Positions 4,510-13,919 of a stretch of 64,000 bases of DNA are shown piece by piece. The stretch's first letter is position 1; each line of letters starts with the position of its first letter. Origin of the DNA: Gemmatimonadota bacterium (GTDB lineage Bacteria > GCA-2686955); contig NYZA01000120.1 of assembly GCA_002686955.1 (NCBI GenBank), forward strand, positions 1-64,000. The letters are read 5' to 3'. The notes under the pieces are model-generated. The model was not told the origin of the DNA. It worked only from the letters and a program-made list of their open reading frames with translations, and did no database searches. The position numbers were made by a program, and so were the translations under genes.

Positions 4510-5340
4510 TTATGGCTCGACGTGGTACGGCATGCCCCATGCGGCAGCGGAGTACGGGGACGTTTCGTCCGTGATCGCTTCGTGGTCGAAGAGATCGACA
4601 TAGGTGAAATAGCGCCCTGCTTCGTCGGGCGCGTTGTAGACGTTTCGGAGCTCGGTCGCATTGACCGGATCGAGCAGTCTTTGCGAGAGCGGTGTCACAT
4701 CTGCGGTGAGCTGGTGGATCACTCCGACTACGTCGGAATCGTTGGCCTCGACCGTGACCGTGATCTCCTCGCCGGGGGCGAAAGTAAGGACCCCGACATC
4801 ATGGAGCGCATCCAGATCGTCGAAGACCACAGTGTGGTCGCCCCACATGACCGTCACCCGAACGATCTCGGTCTCCCCATCTTCCGATCGCCCCTCGTAG
4901 ATCGAAACTTGATCCAGGTTCCACTTGCCGCCGGCGTTTTCTCTGGCGACGACATTGCGCGACGCGACGTCGTTCGAAATCGATTTGTTGTAGGTCGATC
5001 CATCATCGAGGACGACCTCGAGCTCGCCCGAGGCGGTCCTGAGCACCTCGGCATCGGCGCGATCCCCCTCCCTTTGAATGGAATAGTCCGTATCGACATC
5101 ATCGTAGTTTCGCCCGAAAGACGCGATGCCCTCGGTTGAAATTGCGAGGTCCGGGCTCTGCTCCGCGTCCCAGCTCAGCGCGACACCGGACCCACCGTCG
5201 TCGTTGATGCCGTTGCGAACCAGGTCGTCGATCGAATCGCCCAGCAGGCCCTCCCCGCAGCCCGCGAGAATCAGGCCCGCGGCCAAGGTTGTGCTCGTTG
5301 CTCCGGTAGCTCGTCTCATGTTCTTCCTCGATTCAGTCAT
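4510..5340 (-). CDS. Putative lipoprotein of unknown function
   Basis: N-terminal signal with lipobox LILAGC; no recognised domain. Confidence 0.7.
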   Translation of the reverse strand: MTESRKNMRRATGATSTTLAAGLILAGCGEGLLGDSIDDLVRNGINDDGGSGVALSWDAEQSPDLAISTEGIASFGRNYDDVDTDYSIQREGDRADAEVLRTASGELEVVLDDGSTYNKSISNDVASRNVVARENAGGKWNLDQVSIYEGRSEDGETEIVRVTVMWGDHTVVFDDLDALHDVGVLTFAPGEEITVTVEANDSDVVGVIHQLTADVTPLSQRLLDPVNATELRNVYNAPDEAGRYFTYVDLFDHEAITDETSPYSAAAWGMPYHVEP

Positions 5341-5580
5341 GCGTTTCGCGCCACCGTCGATCGCCGGCTGATGGGCGGTGGCGAGAACTGCGCGTTGATG
5401 TTAAGCCGACTTGGGCCGACCGAGGGTCCACCTTGTGCAGGGAATGTGCCAACATGCTACTCGTTGATAGACAACGGCTAAAGGTCTGCAACCCGGCGTG
5501 CCTGCCCTCTCTGAAGGACGCCGGTGCTCTGTTTTCGGTCGCTGTTTTCCGGATCAACCGGATGGCGATCAAGGAAAGGG

Positions 5581-5609
5581 TTGACTTGGGTAGAGGCCCT
5601 GCTTATGAT
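5581..5609 (+). promoter_or_regulatory. Sigma70-type promoter of the cytochrome oxidase operon
   Basis: TTGACT (5581-5586), 17-nt spacer, TATGAT (5604-5609). Confidence 0.7.
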
Positions 5610-5616
5610 GCTGGTC

Positions 5617-5645
5617 ATTGATTCGCATCATTGATCATCATCAAT
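5617..5645. promoter_or_regulatory. Two abutting FNR/CRP-family palindromes
   Basis: TTGATTCGCATCAT (5618-5631) and TTGATCATCATCAA (5631-5644); the second is an exact TTGAT-N4-ATCAA. Confidence 0.7.
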
Positions 5646-5701
5646 CCTATCGGCTCGCCGGTGCTCACTGACGGCTCGTGACGAGCCTCCAGGAAGGTCA
5701 G

Positions 5702-6379
5702 ATGCTCGACTTCTTGCCTGAGAACATCTCCAGCTTTGGTGGAGAGATCGATGGAGTGATCACCTACATCTGGCGGATCATCCTCGCCTGGCTCGTCGCC
5801 ACCGAGGCGGTCTTGGTCTACCTGCTCGTCCGGTATCGTCGGCGAGAGGGGAGGCGCGCCGCATGGCTGCCGGCGACCACCTGGCGAGCCAAAGCATGGA
5901 TATTGGTTCCCGCCGTGTTCGTGACGATCTGTGACATCGGGATCGAGGCGCGGAGTGCTCCAGTGTGGGATGAAGTGAAGCTGGAGCTGCCGGAACCAGA
6001 TCTGCTCATTCGCGTCACTGGTCGCCAGTTCGTCTGGACCTTCACCTACGCCGGTCCTGATGGAGAGCTCGATACGGCCGACGACTTCGAAGCGATCACC
6101 GATCTCTATGTTCCGCGCGACCGAGTCGTTCGGTTTCAACTCGAGTCGGCCGATGTATTGCACTCCTTCTGGGTACCGGTCTTGCGTCTGAAGCAAGATG
6201 CAGTGCCGGGGCGCAGCATACCGGGCTGGTTCGAGGCGACCGCCGACGGTCGATACGAGATCGCTTGCGCCGAGCTTTGCGGAGCATCTCATACGGCGAT
6301 GCGGGGACGACTCACGGTTCAACCGCCTGAAATCTTCGATGCATGGTCTTCGACGATGGCCGAGCAACAGTCCCTTTAG
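5702..6379 (+). CDS. coxB: Cytochrome c oxidase subunit II
   Basis: CuA motif CAELCGASHTAM, ADVLHSFWVP; AGGAAGG SD 5691-5697 before ATG 5702 (alternative GTG 5678). Confidence 0.9.
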   Translation: MLDFLPENISSFGGEIDGVITYIWRIILAWLVATEAVLVYLLVRYRRREGRRAAWLPATTWRAKAWILVPAVFVTICDIGIEARSAPVWDEVKLELPEPDLLIRVTGRQFVWTFTYAGPDGELDTADDFEAITDLYVPRDRVVRFQLESADVLHSFWVPVLRLKQDAVPGRSIPGWFEATADGRYEIACAELCGASHTAMRGRLTVQPPEIFDAWSSTMAEQQSL

Positions 6380-6392
6380 GAGACGCGAGACG

Positions 6393-8099
6393 ATGAGCCA
6401 CGGCGAACCCGAGAGCTTCGTTCGAAAATACATATTCAGCGTCGATCACAAGGTGATCGCAAAGCAGTATATGATCACGGGGCTGTTCATGGCACTGCTC
6501 GGCGGCTTTCTGGCATATGCGCTTCGAAGCCAGCTCGCCTGGCCGGGGGACTCGATCGTTGGGCTGGGAGTGATCGCCCCCCATGCGTACAATTCAGTAG
6601 TCACCTTGCACGGCACCATCATGGTCTTTTGGGTGGCGATGCCGATTCTTGTCGCCGGGTTCGGAAATCTCTTGGTGCCCTTGATGGTGGGTGCGGAAGA
6701 TATGGCCTTCCCCCGCCTCAACATGCTCTCCTACTGGGTCTTTTTTCTCAGCACAATTGTAATCATCGCGTCGTTCTTCGTGCCTGGGGGCGCCGCAGGC
6801 GGAGGTTGGACCGCCTATCCGCCTCTGAGCGGAACGGTACACGCATCAGGCGTCAACTGGGGCATGAACCTGTGGATTCTCGCGGTCGCGCTCGAATTCG
6901 TCGCTTTTCTCATCGGCGGAATCAACATCATTACCACCGGGATCAACATGCGGGTGCCCGGCATGTCGATGTGGGACCTGCCGCTCTTTGTATGGGAAGA
7001 GCTCATAGCAAGCATCGTTTTTTTGCTGGCGGTGGGACCGTTGATCGCAGGTGCGGTTATGTTGTTGCTGGATCGATCCTTCGGCACAGGCTTCTACGCG
7101 CCCTCGGCAGGCGGAGATCCGCTGCTATTCCAGCACCTATTCTGGTTCTTTGGACATCCCGAAGTTTACGTACTGCTGCTTCCCGCGCTCGGCATAATGG
7201 GTGAGGTGCTGTGTGCATTCTCGCGAAAAACGATCTTCGGCTATCGCACGATCGTATGGTCGGTGATCAGTGCGGGCCTGCTCAGCTTCGTCGTATGGGC
7301 GCATCACCAGTTCGTCAGCGGTCTCGATCCACGTCTAGCGTTCCCTTTCAGTGTGACGACGATTCTGATCTCTGTGCCCTTTGCTGTTCACCTCTTCGCT
7401 TTCATAGCAACACTGTACAAGGCATCCATCCGGTTTACCGTCGCGATGGCGTTCACGCTGGCGATGATTGCACTGTTCATGATCGGCGGCGTGACCGGAG
7501 TCATCAATGGATCCGCCGCCGCGGATATCTTCATTCACGACACATATTTCGTCGTCGCTCATTTCCACTACACCCTGGTGCCGATCGTCTTTTTCGCGAC
7601 CTTCTCCGGCATCTACTTCTGGTATCCGAAGCTCTTTGGGCGACTCATGAACGAGGGATTGGGCTGGGTCCATTTTGCCGGCACCTTCTTCTTTTTCAAT
7701 TTGACCTTCATTCCGCAATTCGCGCTCGGCTTGATGGGGCATCACAGGAGGATCGCCAATCCACAGATCTTCGAGTTCCTGCGGGACGGGCAAGGGCTGC
7801 AAGTTCTCTCGACCATTGGAGTGATCGGCTTGCTGGCTGCACAGGTGCCCTTTGTCTACAATTTCTTCGCCAGCATGGTTCGGGGGAAACCGGCCGGCCG
7901 GAATCCCTGGGAGGCGACTACCCTGGAGTGGGCAACCGCGTCTCCGCCGCCGCATGGGAATTTTGACGAGCCGCAAACCGCATACCGCGGGCCCTACGTC
8001 TACAGTCCGCCAGGCGAGGGGCCTGATTGGATTCCGCAATTCGAGCCACCGGCCGAAGCGCTCGAGCCCGACACCGCAATCTCCGAAACCGCGAGCTGA
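6393..8099 (+). CDS. coxA: Cytochrome c oxidase subunit I
   Basis: HPEVYVLLLPALGI, HHQFVSGL, HDTYFVVAHFHYTL; start MSHGEPESFVRKYIFSVDHK. Confidence 0.97.
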   Translation: MSHGEPESFVRKYIFSVDHKVIAKQYMITGLFMALLGGFLAYALRSQLAWPGDSIVGLGVIAPHAYNSVVTLHGTIMVFWVAMPILVAGFGNLLVPLMVGAEDMAFPRLNMLSYWVFFLSTIVIIASFFVPGGAAGGGWTAYPPLSGTVHASGVNWGMNLWILAVALEFVAFLIGGINIITTGINMRVPGMSMWDLPLFVWEELIASIVFLLAVGPLIAGAVMLLLDRSFGTGFYAPSAGGDPLLFQHLFWFFGHPEVYVLLLPALGIMGEVLCAFSRKTIFGYRTIVWSVISAGLLSFVVWAHHQFVSGLDPRLAFPFSVTTILISVPFAVHLFAFIATLYKASIRFTVAMAFTLAMIALFMIGGVTGVINGSAAADIFIHDTYFVVAHFHYTLVPIVFFATFSGIYFWYPKLFGRLMNEGLGWVHFAGTFFFFNLTFIPQFALGLMGHHRRIANPQIFEFLRDGQGLQVLSTIGVIGLLAAQVPFVYNFFASMVRGKPAGRNPWEATTLEWATASPPPHGNFDEPQTAYRGPYVYSPPGEGPDWIPQFEPPAEALEPDTAISETAS

Positions 8100-8102
8100 A
8101 CC

Positions 8103-8684
8103 GTGACCAATTCAGCGATCATCGAGCAGCCGATGGAAACCGCTACGGAATTGCCGAATTCGCGCATGGCGATCTGGTGGTTTCTCGCCTCGGAAGTCGC
8201 CATCTTTGGTGGACTCATCGTGGCCTATGTTCTCGTGCGCTTGCACCACCCGGAGTGGGGGGAGTACGCGTCGCACACGATCAACGCGGCGGGCGCGATC
8301 AATACGATGGTCTTGCTCACGAGCAGCCTGGCCGTCGTGCTCGCCCACCAAGCCGTGGAAGAGGGGAAATTGGAGAAGGCGTCGAAGCTGCTCCTGACAA
8401 CCGTTGCTTTCGGTTTGGTGTTTCTGGCAATCAAGGCCTACGAGTACACCCACGAGCTTCATGCGGGCTTCACCCCGGTGACCAACCTCTTCTGGTCGTT
8501 CTACTACTTGATGACCGGATTGCACGGCTTGCATGTCGTCGGAGGGATGATTGCCATGATCGCCGTATCTCGGAGTGTGCGGCGAGGAGAGCATAGTGCG
8601 CGGGTCGAATGCGTCGGCATGTATTGGCATCTGGTCGACATCGTCTGGATCTTCCTCTTTCCACTCCTCTATCTGGCCTCGTGA
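8103..8684 (+). CDS. coxC: Cytochrome c oxidase subunit III
   Basis: Multi-TM protein with MTGLHGLHVVGGM and YWHLVDIVWIFLFPLLYL. Confidence 0.9.
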   Translation: MTNSAIIEQPMETATELPNSRMAIWWFLASEVAIFGGLIVAYVLVRLHHPEWGEYASHTINAAGAINTMVLLTSSLAVVLAHQAVEEGKLEKASKLLLTTVAFGLVFLAIKAYEYTHELHAGFTPVTNLFWSFYYLMTGLHGLHVVGGMIAMIAVSRSVRRGEHSARVECVGMYWHLVDIVWIFLFPLLYLAS

Positions 8685-8690
8685 GGACAC

Positions 8691-8987
8691 ATGAGTGAGA
8701 CTACCGAACATCGCTCGAACTACTTCATGGTCTTTGGCATTCTGGTCGCTGCATTGGCGATCTCCTTGGCGCTGGCTGCAGTCTCGACTGGACCGATCGT
8801 GGTCGCGGCGATCTTCGCCATCGCTACAGTGAAAGCCTACTTGGTGCTCACTCACTTCATCCACCTCAATGTCGAACCCCGTTTCATCAAGGTGTTGGTC
8901 ATTGGGCTTCTGGCTGTTCTCACGGTGCTCTACATTGGGCTCGTCCCTGACATAGTATGGGTCTTCGGGCGAATGGAAGGGGCGTGA
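8691..8987 (+). CDS. coxD: Prokaryotic cytochrome c oxidase subunit IV family protein
   Basis: About 98 aa, three hydrophobic segments, VKAYLVLTHFIHL, position after subunit III. Confidence 0.8.
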   Translation: MSETTEHRSNYFMVFGILVAALAISLALAAVSTGPIVVAAIFAIATVKAYLVLTHFIHLNVEPRFIKVLVIGLLAVLTVLYIGLVPDIVWVFGRMEGA

Positions 8988-9580
8988 TGTCCGCGATGGC
9001 TCAGGCAGAGATTTGCTCATCGAGCCGACGGATCGTTTCCAGCGCCGTGCTGGGCACCGTTGTCTTCTTGATATCCGAAGTGATGCTATTCTGCGCGTTG
9101 ATCAGCGCCTATATCGTCCTCCGTGGGCAAAGCGGGATCTGGCCTCCGCTCGATCAGCCACGATTGCCGGCGGTAGCCACTGGGGCCAATACCTGTGTAT
9201 TGATTGCGAGCGGCCTCTTCATGTGGAGGAGTCTTGCCGCAATCGAGAACGCGGACCGCATTCGCTTTCGTCGCGAACTCGTGACCGCGTTCGTGTTGGG
9301 CGCCCTCTTTCTGGTGGGGCAAGGAACCGAGTGGATCTTTCTCGTGCGCTACGGGCTCACAACCACTTCTAGTGTATACGGCGCCTTGTTTTACACAATC
9401 GTCGGCTGCCACGGACTTCATGTCGCCGCTGCGCTGGCCGTACTGGGATTCGTTTTGATCAGGGCAGTCCAAGGGTACTATGAATATGGGCGCCGTGATG
9501 GATTGAGGGCCCTGCGACTCTATTGGACCTTTGTCGTCGGCATCTGGCCACCGCTCTATGGATTGGTGTACTTGTGGTGA
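8987..9580 (+). CDS. Second heme-copper oxidase subunit III-like protein
   Basis: SEVMLFCALISAYIVLR, GCHGLHVAAALAVLGF; ATG overlaps the stop of the previous gene. Confidence 0.8.
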   Translation: MSAMAQAEICSSSRRIVSSAVLGTVVFLISEVMLFCALISAYIVLRGQSGIWPPLDQPRLPAVATGANTCVLIASGLFMWRSLAAIENADRIRFRRELVTAFVLGALFLVGQGTEWIFLVRYGLTTTSSVYGALFYTIVGCHGLHVAAALAVLGFVLIRAVQGYYEYGRRDGLRALRLYWTFVVGIWPPLYGLVYLW

Positions 9581-9837
9581 GATACGCATTCCTTTCGTTG
9601 ATGCTGGCTCTAGTGACTTTTCCTGCGCGGGCTTGTCCGAGCTGCGCGGGAGCGAGCACCGACAATGGTGCCGCCTATCTCATGGCGACCGGCCTGCTGC
9701 TCCTCATGCCGCCGGCGTTGATTGCGGGTCTGGCGGCGTGGTTGCTGCGGGCGGGGCGCAACTCCAAGAGAAGCACTGAACACTGCCTCACCGTGGTGTC
9801 GCTGATCGCCTTTTCGGGAGTTCACGGATGGATATGA
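9577..9837 (+). CDS. Small membrane protein with CPSC motif, oxidase-locus associated
   Basis: GTG start overlapping upstream stop; signal/TM, ACPSCAG, second TM. Confidence 0.6.
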   Translation: MRYAFLSLMLALVTFPARACPSCAGASTDNGAAYLMATGLLLLMPPALIAGLAAWLLRAGRNSKRSTEHCLTVVSLIAFSGVHGWI

Positions 9838-10886
9838 CGGTTGCCTTAACGAGAATGTTGGTCCTGCTGACTCCGCTCGCGGTTTTCGGCGTTGGATGCG
9901 CCTATGAGGCGCCGGAGCCCTTCGTTCAATCGCAGTGGTTGGGGGGGCGCGAGGTAGATGCGGCGACCTTGAACGCTGGGCGGGAGGCCTACAGCTTCTA
10001 CTGCTATCCTTGTCATGGAGAAAAGGGAGACGGCCGGGGGCCATCGGCGACTGGCCTGCGCACTCCCCCGCGCGATCTCCGCGCGGCGACCTTCAAGTTC
10101 GCGGGCGTGATCGACGGATTGCCGCACGACGAGGATCTGGCGAGAATCGTCAAGAACGGGCTCTCAGGAACCGCCATGCTTCCCTGGCCTGTTCCGGAGG
10201 AGGAGCTGAACGACATCATCCAGTACATCAAGACCTTTTCGCCTGAGGGCGAGGGATGGCGCGACGAGGATTTCGAACTTGGTGAGCAGGTGCTCCCCGG
10301 TGCCGATCCATGGCAGGGGAAGAGCGAAGAAGCAGCCGTCGAGCAGGGACGGACGCTCTATCACAGTATGGTGATGTGTTACCAGTGTCACCCGGCGTAC
10401 GAGACGCCGGCGCGAATCAACGAGTATCGAGCGGAGCTAGGCATGGCTCCGGTGGCCGGCTTCAGGGAATCCCTCTGGCGTCCCGCTCCGAAAGCGAGCG
10501 CGACTTTTACGCGGCCGATGCCGGGAGACCCTCCATGCTCGGAAGACGACGAGTGCGGGGGGGATGACCAAATCTGTCGTTTCGGGCGATGTGAACAGGC
10601 CATGATGGTCTTACCCCCTGATTTCACTTTCAATGAGCTACGAGACGGTACCTCTCTTCCCGACCTGTACCGAACCATCGCTGTCGGCATTCCTGGAACG
10701 GCCATGCCCTCGTGGATCGACGGACTATCCGAAGAGGACATCTGGTCGTTGGCGCACTATGTTCAATACCTCACCGGGCTGCGCGGGTCAGCCGAGCGCG
10801 AGAGAATAGCGGAGAGGCTCCAAATCGATACCATCTCTATCGCCATGCGTGACAAGACGGGCGACGAGGCTCGTTCTTCCCCATGA
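9828..10886 (+). CDS. Diheme cytochrome c
   Basis: Two CxxCH motifs (CYPCH, CYQCH) and two GTAM candidate Met-ligand loops; lipoprotein-like N-terminus. Confidence 0.85.
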   Translation: MDMTVALTRMLVLLTPLAVFGVGCAYEAPEPFVQSQWLGGREVDAATLNAGREAYSFYCYPCHGEKGDGRGPSATGLRTPPRDLRAATFKFAGVIDGLPHDEDLARIVKNGLSGTAMLPWPVPEEELNDIIQYIKTFSPEGEGWRDEDFELGEQVLPGADPWQGKSEEAAVEQGRTLYHSMVMCYQCHPAYETPARINEYRAELGMAPVAGFRESLWRPAPKASATFTRPMPGDPPCSEDDECGGDDQICRFGRCEQAMMVLPPDFTFNELRDGTSLPDLYRTIAVGIPGTAMPSWIDGLSEEDIWSLAHYVQYLTGLRGSAERERIAERLQIDTISIAMRDKTGDEARSSP

Positions 10887-11608
10887 GCGCGCGCGATCCG
10901 AACCTTGCCGCGGGCGTCGACGAAGCGACAGGCAGTTGCCTCACATGCGCCAAGAGAACCCATCTCTTTCTCGGACCCTTGGGTGAGAGTCGATTGCGGG
11001 ATCTGGACGGCAAACGAGAGAGTCGCTTGCGCAGCGCCGGTACTTGTCTCTTCAGGCAGGGTGAGGAGGTCTCGAATGTGCACTGCATAGACAGTGCCGT
11101 GCTCAAGTTCTCGCGAAGATCTCCCGGTGGACGAGACACGATCGTCGATACCGCCGGGCAGGGCCGACTCGCCGGGCTCGTGTCGATCTTCGGCAGAGGA
11201 GATCACGCCTACTCCGCGGAAGTCGTGAGAGCGGGCAATGTCTGCACCTTCGACCGGGCCACAATCGAGGTACTTGCGCTCGAATGCTCTCAATTCGCAC
11301 GGGCGCTCTACAGAGAGCTTGCGCTGGAGCTGCACAGGGCCGCGAGCCGAATTGGACTGCTGTCCTGTTCCAAGCTGGAACCGAAGCTCGCGCTCCTTCT
11401 GCTCGATTTGGCCGAGACCAGGGATCCGTCGGAGCCGGTCATAGAAGACTTCTCTCGGCGCGACTTGGCGCAGATGTGTGGAGTCTCCACCGAGGCTCTG
11501 GTGCGTTGCCTCAGCCGGTGGAAATCCGCGGGAGTGATCGACACCGATTCCGGCGCCATCATGATCAGAGACGGCGATCATCTCAAGGAGCTCGGACGCC
11601 AAGTCTGA
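10883..11608 (+). CDS. Crp/Fnr family transcriptional regulator
   Basis: N-terminal CLTCAKR, cyclic-nucleotide-binding-like fold region, C-terminal HTH RRDLAQMCGVSTEALVRCLSRWKSAGVI. Confidence 0.85.
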   Translation: MSARDPNLAAGVDEATGSCLTCAKRTHLFLGPLGESRLRDLDGKRESRLRSAGTCLFRQGEEVSNVHCIDSAVLKFSRRSPGGRDTIVDTAGQGRLAGLVSIFGRGDHAYSAEVVRAGNVCTFDRATIEVLALECSQFARALYRELALELHRAASRIGLLSCSKLEPKLALLLLDLAETRDPSEPVIEDFSRRDLAQMCGVSTEALVRCLSRWKSAGVIDTDSGAIMIRDGDHLKELGRQV

Positions 11609-11614
11609 GCGGAT

Positions 11615-12619
11615 ATGTCGATGAACGAACGCACGATCGGCCCAACCGACACAATCGCCGACTTTGGGACGGAGCCAACTCTACATCGGTACGCCTGGGT
11701 TTGCGTAATCACGACCTTCTGCCTTCTGGTGTGGGGTGGCCTGGTACACGCGACAGGCTCGTCGCTCGCCTGCCCGGATTGGCCCCTCTGCTACGGCCAG
11801 GTTTTCCCCGAGATGCAGGGAGGAGTAGCAATCGAGCACGGCCACCGTCTGCTGGCCTCTCTCGTCGGCGTCTTGAGCATCGGTCTTCTCGTGCTGGTCC
11901 GGAGATCCCGTCGAGTGAAGACGATGGCCGCGACGGCAGTCTTGCTTGTGGTGGTTCAGGGCGCCCTTGGCGGGCTTACGGTGATCTTCCGCCTGCCACC
12001 GCTGGTCTCGACCGCCCATCTGGCCCTGGGGAGTGCTTTCTTCTGCCTCCTGATTGCAATCGCTCTGCGAATCCAAGACGGGAATCGGTCGCAAACGAGG
12101 CAAAGTCCGTCCCGGGGCATTGTCCGGTTGGCGTCGATCGGGACCATTCTCGTGTACGTTCAGCTGGTTGTCGGAGCGCTCGTGCGGCATACCAGCGCGG
12201 GGCTTGCGTGCAACAACCAGGTTGTTCTCTGCAACGGAGCATGGTGGCCGACGGAACCGGGCAGCGGGCCGGCGATGTTGCACATGGGACACCGTGCGCT
12301 CGGACTTCTGGTCGCTCTGTATGTGACTTGGTCGGCGGTGCGTGCGATTCGAAGTGCCAGGAGCGCCGGAAGAATCGATCTCGCGCGTCACGCCGTGGCT
12401 GGTCCGTTCCTGGTGATCGCCCAGATCGCATTGGGCATGTGGACGGTCCATTCGTTTATTGATGCTTCATTCGTAACCGCGCATCTGGCCGGCGCCGAGC
12501 TTCTTCTCGCGCAGCAGTGGACCCTGAAACTTTTGGCTCAGCGGCCGCCGCGGATTCGCGAACGGCACTCCGAGCGAGCTCATCCGGGACTCGGCGCGCC
12601 ACTGGAGTCATGCGGATGA
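11615..12619 (+). CDS. ctaA: Heme A synthase
   Basis: VWGGLVHATGSSLACPDWPLCYGQ, EHGHRLLASLVG, GALVRHTSAGLAC. Confidence 0.93.
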   Translation: MSMNERTIGPTDTIADFGTEPTLHRYAWVCVITTFCLLVWGGLVHATGSSLACPDWPLCYGQVFPEMQGGVAIEHGHRLLASLVGVLSIGLLVLVRRSRRVKTMAATAVLLVVVQGALGGLTVIFRLPPLVSTAHLALGSAFFCLLIAIALRIQDGNRSQTRQSPSRGIVRLASIGTILVYVQLVVGALVRHTSAGLACNNQVVLCNGAWWPTEPGSGPAMLHMGHRALGLLVALYVTWSAVRAIRSARSAGRIDLARHAVAGPFLVIAQIALGMWTVHSFIDASFVTAHLAGAELLLAQQWTLKLLAQRPPRIRERHSERAHPGLGAPLESCG

Positions 12620-13497
12620 CTGTCACGGCTACTGGAACATCGAGAATCGATCTCGGGCGAGATATCGCGGGGCTGGGAAAGCCGAGGATCACGGTTTTCG
12701 TGCTGATCACGACCGCGATCGGGATCTTCGTCGCTCCTCAATCGATGCCCTGGATCGCCGGCATGCTCTCGATCTGCGCTACGGGGCTCCTCGTTGCGGC
12801 CGCGAATACTCTGAATTGCTATATCGAGCGAGATACCGACGCCCGCATGGAGAGAACGCGCAAGCGCCCACTTCCCGATGGTCGAATCCCCGCGAATTGG
12901 GCTTTGGGCGTGGGCCTCATGTCGGCAGCGATCGCCGTGCCGACACTCGTTCTGGCCGCCAATCGCCTGACGGCGACCTTGGGACTGGCCGCGTTGCTGA
13001 TCTATGTGCTCGCCTACACACCACTCAAGCGTGTTGGTCCTTTTGCTCTTCAGGTGGGGGCGTTCGCGGGTGCGATGCCGCCCTTGATGGGATGGGCTGC
13101 CGCCACCGGAAGGATCGGCGGCCTAGGTGCGGTTCTCTTCGCCATCCTCTTCCTCTGGCAAATGCCCCACTTCTTGGCCCTCTCTTTGCTCTACGAAGAG
13201 GATTACCGGCGAGGGGGCATAGCAACGCTCTCGGTTCGCCGCGGACCGGAGGTCGCACGGCGGAGACTCCCGATTTGGGCGGGAGCTCTCACCATCACGA
13301 GCCTTCTTGCCCTTCCCGTCGGAGCCGCGGGACTTCTCTACGCAGTTCCCGCGTCCCTCGCGGGACTGGGGTTCGTGGCGGTCGCGTGGGCCGCTGGACG
13401 GGAATCGAGTGCTTCCCTTTGGGCGCGGCGAGCGTTTCTGTACTCATTGGCATACTTGCCGATCGTGCTCGGCGCCCTGCTCCTGGATGCCCGGTGA
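12610..13497 (+). CDS. ctaB: Protoheme IX farnesyltransferase
   Basis: NTLNCYIERDTDARMERTRKRPLPDGRI, LFLWQMPHFLALSLLYEEDYRRGGI. Confidence 0.93.
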   Translation: MRMTVTATGTSRIDLGRDIAGLGKPRITVFVLITTAIGIFVAPQSMPWIAGMLSICATGLLVAAANTLNCYIERDTDARMERTRKRPLPDGRIPANWALGVGLMSAAIAVPTLVLAANRLTATLGLAALLIYVLAYTPLKRVGPFALQVGAFAGAMPPLMGWAAATGRIGGLGAVLFAILFLWQMPHFLALSLLYEEDYRRGGIATLSVRRGPEVARRRLPIWAGALTITSLLALPVGAAGLLYAVPASLAGLGFVAVAWAAGRESSASLWARRAFLYSLAYLPIVLGALLLDAR

Positions 13498-13919
13498 TGG
13501 CGCAGGCCCCGAGTCTCCTATCTCAGGCCGAGGCCTTCTGGAACGCCGCTGCGCTCTGCCAGGTCGTCGGCGCCCTCTACGCGATCAACCAAGGAAAGCA
13601 GCGCCTGCATCGGGGACTCATGATGGGAGCGATCGCCGCTTCATTCCTCTTCCTCGTCTTCTATGTGATCCGACACTACGTGGAAGGTACCGTGCATTTC
13701 ACCGGACCCGATGCGATTCGGCCCTTCTATCTCTTCATCCTCTCGACTCACACCGTTCTGGCGGCAGTGGCGCTGCCGATTGTGTTGCGAACCGCCTATC
13801 TGGGTGTGAAGGGGAATCACCCCAAGCACCGCCGCATCGCCCGCATCACGGTTCCTGTATGGCTATACACCTCGATCACGGGAATAGCGATATTCGGGAT
13901 GATCTACGGGCTCGATTAG
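13497..13919 (+). CDS. DUF420 family membrane protein
   Basis: YVIRHYVEGTVHFTGPDAIRPFYLFILSTHTVLAAVALP; located after ctaB. Confidence 0.8.
   Translation: MAQAPSLLSQAEAFWNAAALCQVVGALYAINQGKQRLHRGLMMGAIAASFLFLVFYVIRHYVEGTVHFTGPDAIRPFYLFILSTHTVLAAVALPIVLRTAYLGVKGNHPKHRRIARITVPVWLYTSITGIAIFGMIYGLD

Follow-up and report, generated by a model that had tools for sequence, protein, structure and literature searches.

In Rhodobacter sphaeroides, the regulator FnrL represses coxII-X-XI-III, coxI, and fnrL via TTGAT-N4-ATCAA sites; the low-affinity cox operons are thereby transcribed less, and the site at fnrL itself is marked as negative (PMC2908626). In Escherichia coli, FNR-repressed promoters, e.g., ndh, have sites ranging from upstream of the -35 element to overlapping +1 (PMC3688515). 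The locus analyzed here lies in the window, i.e., the whole 64,000-nucleotide (64-kb) stretch of the Gemmatimonadota contig, and comprises a promoter, an operator array embedded in it, and the cytochrome c oxidase (cox) operon that follows.

5581 to 5586, plus strand: -35 element TTGACT (consensus scan)
5604 to 5609, plus strand: -10 element TATGAT, on which unit 1 of the operator array has its left half-site
5605 to 5618, no strand assigned: operator unit 1, ATGATGCTGGTCAT, ATGAT-gctg-GTCAT, weak, centre at about -4.5 to the predicted start
5606 to 5643, no strand assigned: whole array, TGA-N6-TCA three times with an exact 13-bp period
5618 to 5631, no strand assigned: operator unit 2, TTGATTCGCATCAT, TTGAT-tcgc-ATCAT, one mismatch, centre at about +8.5
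5631 to 5644, no strand assigned: operator unit 3, TTGATCATCATCAA, TTGAT-catc-ATCAA, exact FNR consensus, centre at about +21.5
5702 to 6379, plus strand: coxB, cytochrome c oxidase subunit II, first gene (PF00116 above cutoff; TIGR02866 145.2 bits, cutoff 147.7)
6393 to 8099, plus strand: coxA, subunit I (PF00115, TIGR02891)
8103 to 8684, plus strand: coxC, subunit III (PF00510)
8691 to 8987, plus strand: COX4-type subunit IV (PF03626)
8987 to 9580, plus strand: second subunit III-like protein (PF00510)
9828 to 10886, plus strand: c-type cytochrome (PF13442, PF00034)
10883 to 11608, plus strand: Crp/Fnr-family regulator, suggested to bind the array (PF00027 and PF13545 above cutoff)
11615 to 12619, plus strand: ctaA, heme A synthase (PF02628)
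12610 to 13497, plus strand: ctaB, heme O synthase (TIGR01473 above cutoff)
13497 to 13919, plus strand: DUF420 membrane protein, probable operon end (PF04238)

The coxB gene is preceded by a Shine-Dalgarno sequence, AGGAAGG, and a small unassigned frame lies between the second subunit III gene and the c-type cytochrome gene. The cox genes are tightly packed with several stop-start overlaps, among them one between the cytochrome stop codon and the regulator start codon, and on these grounds the regulator is very likely cotranscribed with the cox genes. Two different subunit III proteins (8103 to 9580) occur in this operon, as in many cox operons of other phyla. Directly 5' of the coxB Shine-Dalgarno sequence, folding of the leader revealed a strong 6-bp G+C hairpin, GGCTCG-TGA-CGAGCC (5673 to 5687), which might modulate coxB translation. 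On the other side of the intergenic region, an 18-nt inverted repeat (5345 to 5387, 83% complementary, 7 nt between the arms) was found just upstream of a divergent gene (4510 to 5340) encoding a lipoprotein-like product with no Pfam match.

The TTGACT-17-TATGAT promoter (5581 to 5609) matched the consensus at 10 of 12 positions, the best of five candidates within 9 kb, and its -35 element, 17-bp spacer, and -10 element lay where the original prediction had placed them; transcription is predicted to start near 5616 to 5617. The two TTGAT-N4-ATCAA-type sites proposed there, 13 bp apart with one base in common, were confirmed at 5618 to 5631 and 5631 to 5644. The array is real, embedded in the promoter, and one unit longer than first described, since an assembly-wide search with the combined 27-bp pattern returned an in-register match 13 bp upstream, a third and weaker unit at 5605 to 5618, with its left half-site on the -10 hexamer itself. 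The sites had been described as just downstream of the promoter, but the array in fact extends from the -10 box across the predicted start and some 27 bases into the transcribed region.

The TGA-N6-TCA spacing of the units is common to Crp- and FNR-type sites. Unit strength rises downstream, from ATGAT..GTCAT through TTGAT..ATCAT to TTGAT..ATCAA, and the half-sites alternate 9 and 4 bp apart along the array. Units 2 and 3 together form a palindrome with every half-site base matching, and they differ at three positions per 13-bp period, all confined to the unrecognized N4 spacer, which leaves the half-sites unchanged. Perfect abutting sites are impossible at 13 bp because one site requires A at the shared base and its neighbour requires T. 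The single mismatch of unit 2 to the FNR-type operator is thus an unavoidable result of sharing a base with unit 3, and units 2 and 3 are the best that this geometry permits. A search of the open-licence literature yielded no account of FNR/CRP units that overlap or stand in 13-bp tandem, and we know of no Crp/Fnr protein whose operators are packed, three in a row, with each overlapping its neighbour.

The product of the gene at 10883 to 11608, for which a Crp/Fnr-family protein had been proposed, was assigned to the Crp/Fnr superfamily by PF00027 (39.6 bits, cutoff 27.5) and PF13545 (49.9 bits, cutoff 27). No other protein in the 84.5%-complete assembly passed the HTH_Crp_2 cutoff; two scored below it. 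The score against the FNR subfamily model NF008365 was 41.7 bits versus a cutoff of 228, and the NCBIfam models of FixK and FnrL gave 40.9 of 300 and 28.6 of 300, respectively. The 4Fe-4S cluster of E. coli FNR is held by Cys20, Cys23, Cys29, and Cys122. In the regulator, Cys19, Cys22, and Cys121 correspond to residues 20, 23, and 122, and no cysteine is present at position 29. The absence of any one cluster cysteine excludes a protein from the FNR group (PMC2908626), by which rule the regulator falls outside it. The recognition helix, T203-E204-A-L-V207-R208, keeps the equivalents of Glu209 (E204) and Arg213 (R208), which are conserved across FNR, FixK, and DNR (PMC2908626), and carries valine (V207) in place of Ser212. 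Because TTGAT-binding proteins carry Ser212 at this position, TTGAT specificity is not assured. The proposed Crp/Fnr family assignment stood; with one of the four cluster cysteines missing and Ser212 replaced, the regulator is FNR-like and not a canonical FNR. Alignment-free structure prediction was fair only for the C-terminal winged helix (residues ~161 to 240) and useless for the cysteine region.

The regulator and three other proteins (L005, L008, and L011) form a Crp/Fnr group with an N-terminal CxxC motif and an internal cysteine at the FNR 122 position, no third FNR cysteine, and Ile, Val, or Met at the Ser212 position. The three proteins resemble the regulator in the cysteine pattern and in the E-x-x-(I/V/M)-R helix with its hydrophobic residue at Ser212, but they share only 23 to 28% identity with it and have no cox genes in 1.5 kb on either side.

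We read the 40-bp array as the operator of a local, autoregulated Crp/Fnr repressor of the cox operon, with a probability of about 0.5. Dimers of the embedded Crp/Fnr protein would bind the TGA-N6-TCA units and block RNA polymerase, with unit 1 covering the -10 box, unit 2 the start, and unit 3 the first transcribed bases. Repression is the natural reading because any occupied unit would stop polymerase binding, opening, or escape. The original prediction that FNR/Crp-type sites cover the cox operon start in a position that would repress was supported by the location of the array over the -10 box and the predicted start. As the regulator gene sits within the cox operon, binding would also amount to negative autoregulation. 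The embedded gene is a plausible source of the binder, since the assembly shows no second clear Crp/Fnr gene and the encoded protein retains E204 and R208, and a perfect site that is not repeated beyond chance fits a local target. The likely signal would be oxygen or redox state, sensed via the conserved cysteines 19, 22, and 121. Against the repressor reading, the start is only predicted, the 84.5%-complete assembly could miss another Crp/Fnr protein, and both the array and the embedded regulator are absent from 40 cox loci of other phyla and from the sister genome.

As to the order of occupancy, unit 3, the strongest, would be occupied first. Its distance of 26 bp from unit 1 could allow these two to be bound at once, with unit 2 as a competitor of each. 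Neighbouring units are probably not co-occupied because their recognition helices would come within ~4 bp. Mutual exclusion of neighbours and compatibility of units 1 and 3 are expected from this geometry, not from a computed model. The more specific version, a single-target repressor whose neighbouring units exclude each other (either unit 2 by itself or the pair of units 1 and 3), with a graded or switch-like shut-off of the aerobic oxidase from a self-contained, autoregulated operon, is rather unlikely.

Cytochrome bd oxidase was not detected in the assembly. The only other heme-copper protein was a divergent NorB-like protein of 461 amino acids (L043, 8550 to 10876 on contig C93; PF00115, 53.8 bits), adjoined by a NorC-like membrane cytochrome c; the Nor assignment was made by eye, with no NCBIfam match. 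The 18 kb of sequence retrieved with this gene contained no FNR-type site within one mismatch of the consensus. It would make sense for the cell to silence its only aa3-type oxidase when oxygen is absent or when NO or redox stress sets in.

The strongest competing explanation, doubtful in our estimate, is that the array is a genuine operator of another dimeric repressor and the embedded Crp/Fnr protein acts elsewhere. The binder could be the product of a Crp/Fnr gene missing from the assembly, which is 84.5% complete, or a member of another helix-turn-helix family that reads TGA/TCA with 9- or 4-bp spacing. The valine for Ser212 in the recognition helix of the embedded protein would agree with this, as would the 13-bp packing, which is unusual for Crp/Fnr dimers, and the ability of the half-sites to pair also as TCA-T-TGA. 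It is opposed by the spacing and letters of the array, which are those of the FNR consensus, and by the position of the only clear Crp/Fnr gene found, in the same operon.

That the array has no regulatory role, being a set of imperfect 13-bp tandem repeats or a chance arrangement picked for one FNR-like copy, is improbable. Markov models of the window predicted ~2 exact TTGAT-N4-ATCAA sites in the 4.28-Mb assembly by chance, and one, unit 3, was found, a number at which an isolated site would carry little weight; with at most one mismatch, 91 sites were counted versus 66 to 83 expected. A wide FNR regulon was rejected on these counts. The count of 12 for a reversed-pattern control was misleading, as it ignored dinucleotide bias. 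The 27-bp double unit is expected ~1e-5 times per genome, and the triple TGA-N6-TCA likewise, for a motif picked after being seen. The exact double unit was absent from all 385 other genomes; with one mismatch it occurred in one other genome (G290), and the reversed control pattern gave two such hits among the 386 genomes. A loose match to the array on contig C219 (three mismatches) was dropped as sequence without promoter-like context.

A second, agnostic shuffle search left motif, arm, gap, and period free. None of 1000 dinucleotide shuffles of the 361-bp intergenic region reached the three-unit score, but ~2 of 20 shuffles of the whole 64 kb equalled or beat it, and the window also holds arrays of other motifs with similar scores. 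As shuffles of the 64 kb reach the same score, the significance of the array rests on its promoter location and on the Crp/Fnr consensus, a reasonable prior in an operon encoding a Crp/Fnr protein. A chance origin is unlikely for the promoter itself and less clearly so for the unguided 64-kb search. The 64-kb shuffles, the expected number of exact sites, and the lack of demonstrated conservation favor an array without function; the promoter-region shuffles, consensus-fitting units where ~1e-5 such arrays are expected genome-wide, and the restriction of the divergence between units 2 and 3 to the spacer speak against it.

The phylum comparison comprised two genomes, and the sister genome has no orthologous cox operon; its oxidases are distant (40% and 34% identity in subunit I), and neither the array nor a clear Crp was found in it. 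Forty cox loci from other phyla were picked by subunit I similarity (about 45 to 64%, at most 64% identity). None of the 40 has the array or a Crp/Fnr gene inside the operon, nor does any carry, immediately 5' of coxB, a TTGAT-N4-ATCAA site within one mismatch of the consensus. A partial Crp/Fnr gene lay ~1.4 kb upstream of coxB in one locus (L057), and another lay ~9 kb downstream in a second (L075). Conservation upstream of coxB, set as the test beforehand, was thus negative in 40 loci that all lack the embedded regulator. This result is uninformative and not refuting, because the loci belong to other phyla, share at most 64% identity, and have no embedded Crp/Fnr gene. The joint absence of array and embedded regulator is compatible with their belonging together and proves nothing. 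The regulator was also absent from the single genome of the phylum with the closest oxidase (G058), and a scan of GTDB contigs returned only a relative of 23% identity.

Activation by the array is marginally less probable still than an array without function. The units would then lie near -41.5 of a later start (~5653 to 5679) or act on the divergent gene at 4510 to 5340. FNR-type proteins mostly activate from about -41.5 (PMC3688515), and the coxB start at 5702 leaves room for a later transcription start. However, no recognizable -10 element occurs at matching distances, and the 10-of-12 promoter lies exactly under the array. The divergent ATG is ~265 bp away, with no promoter predicted on that strand. 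Very improbable, and rejected on folding energy and the absence of an Rfam hit, is a role of the palindromes in the cox mRNA, where they would form a hairpin at the 5' end: ATTGAT-CATC-ATCAAT is able to pair and would be transcribed, but at -2.2 kcal/mol it folds less stably than the average shuffle (z +0.63), the leader taken as a whole does not stand out (z -0.48), no Rfam match was found at the array, and unit 1 would not be transcribed.

If a local Crp/Fnr repressor does act here, FNR-type control of the main oxidase has shrunk to a one-operon, self-regulated module with a reduced-cysteine Crp/Fnr protein, in a lineage whose relatives have hardly been sampled. The 13-bp overlapping triplet offers an easily tested case of overlapping palindromes sharing or excluding dimers.

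Control of this kind, in which a TTGAT-binding regulator represses an aa3 oxidase, has precedent; the dense packing of three sites is unusual and, together with a regulator encoded in the operon, makes the locus a variant. By analogy, the locus resembles E. coli FNR-repressed promoters such as ndh in the consensus and in the repressing position of the site. It differs in that E. coli FNR is the canonical 4Fe-4S protein, and no 13-bp overlapping triplets are described in the part of the source considered here (PMC3688515). The closer likeness is to R. sphaeroides FnrL, which combines a Crp/Fnr protein, TTGAT-N4-ATCAA at an aa3-type cox operon, a negative effect, and a negative-marked site at the regulator's own gene, fnrL. 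FnrL is global, acts on at least 27 operons with one listed site per cox promoter, and is encoded outside the cox operon (PMC2908626), whereas the array described here has three overlapping units, its putative regulator is encoded in the operon, and no wider regulon is visible.
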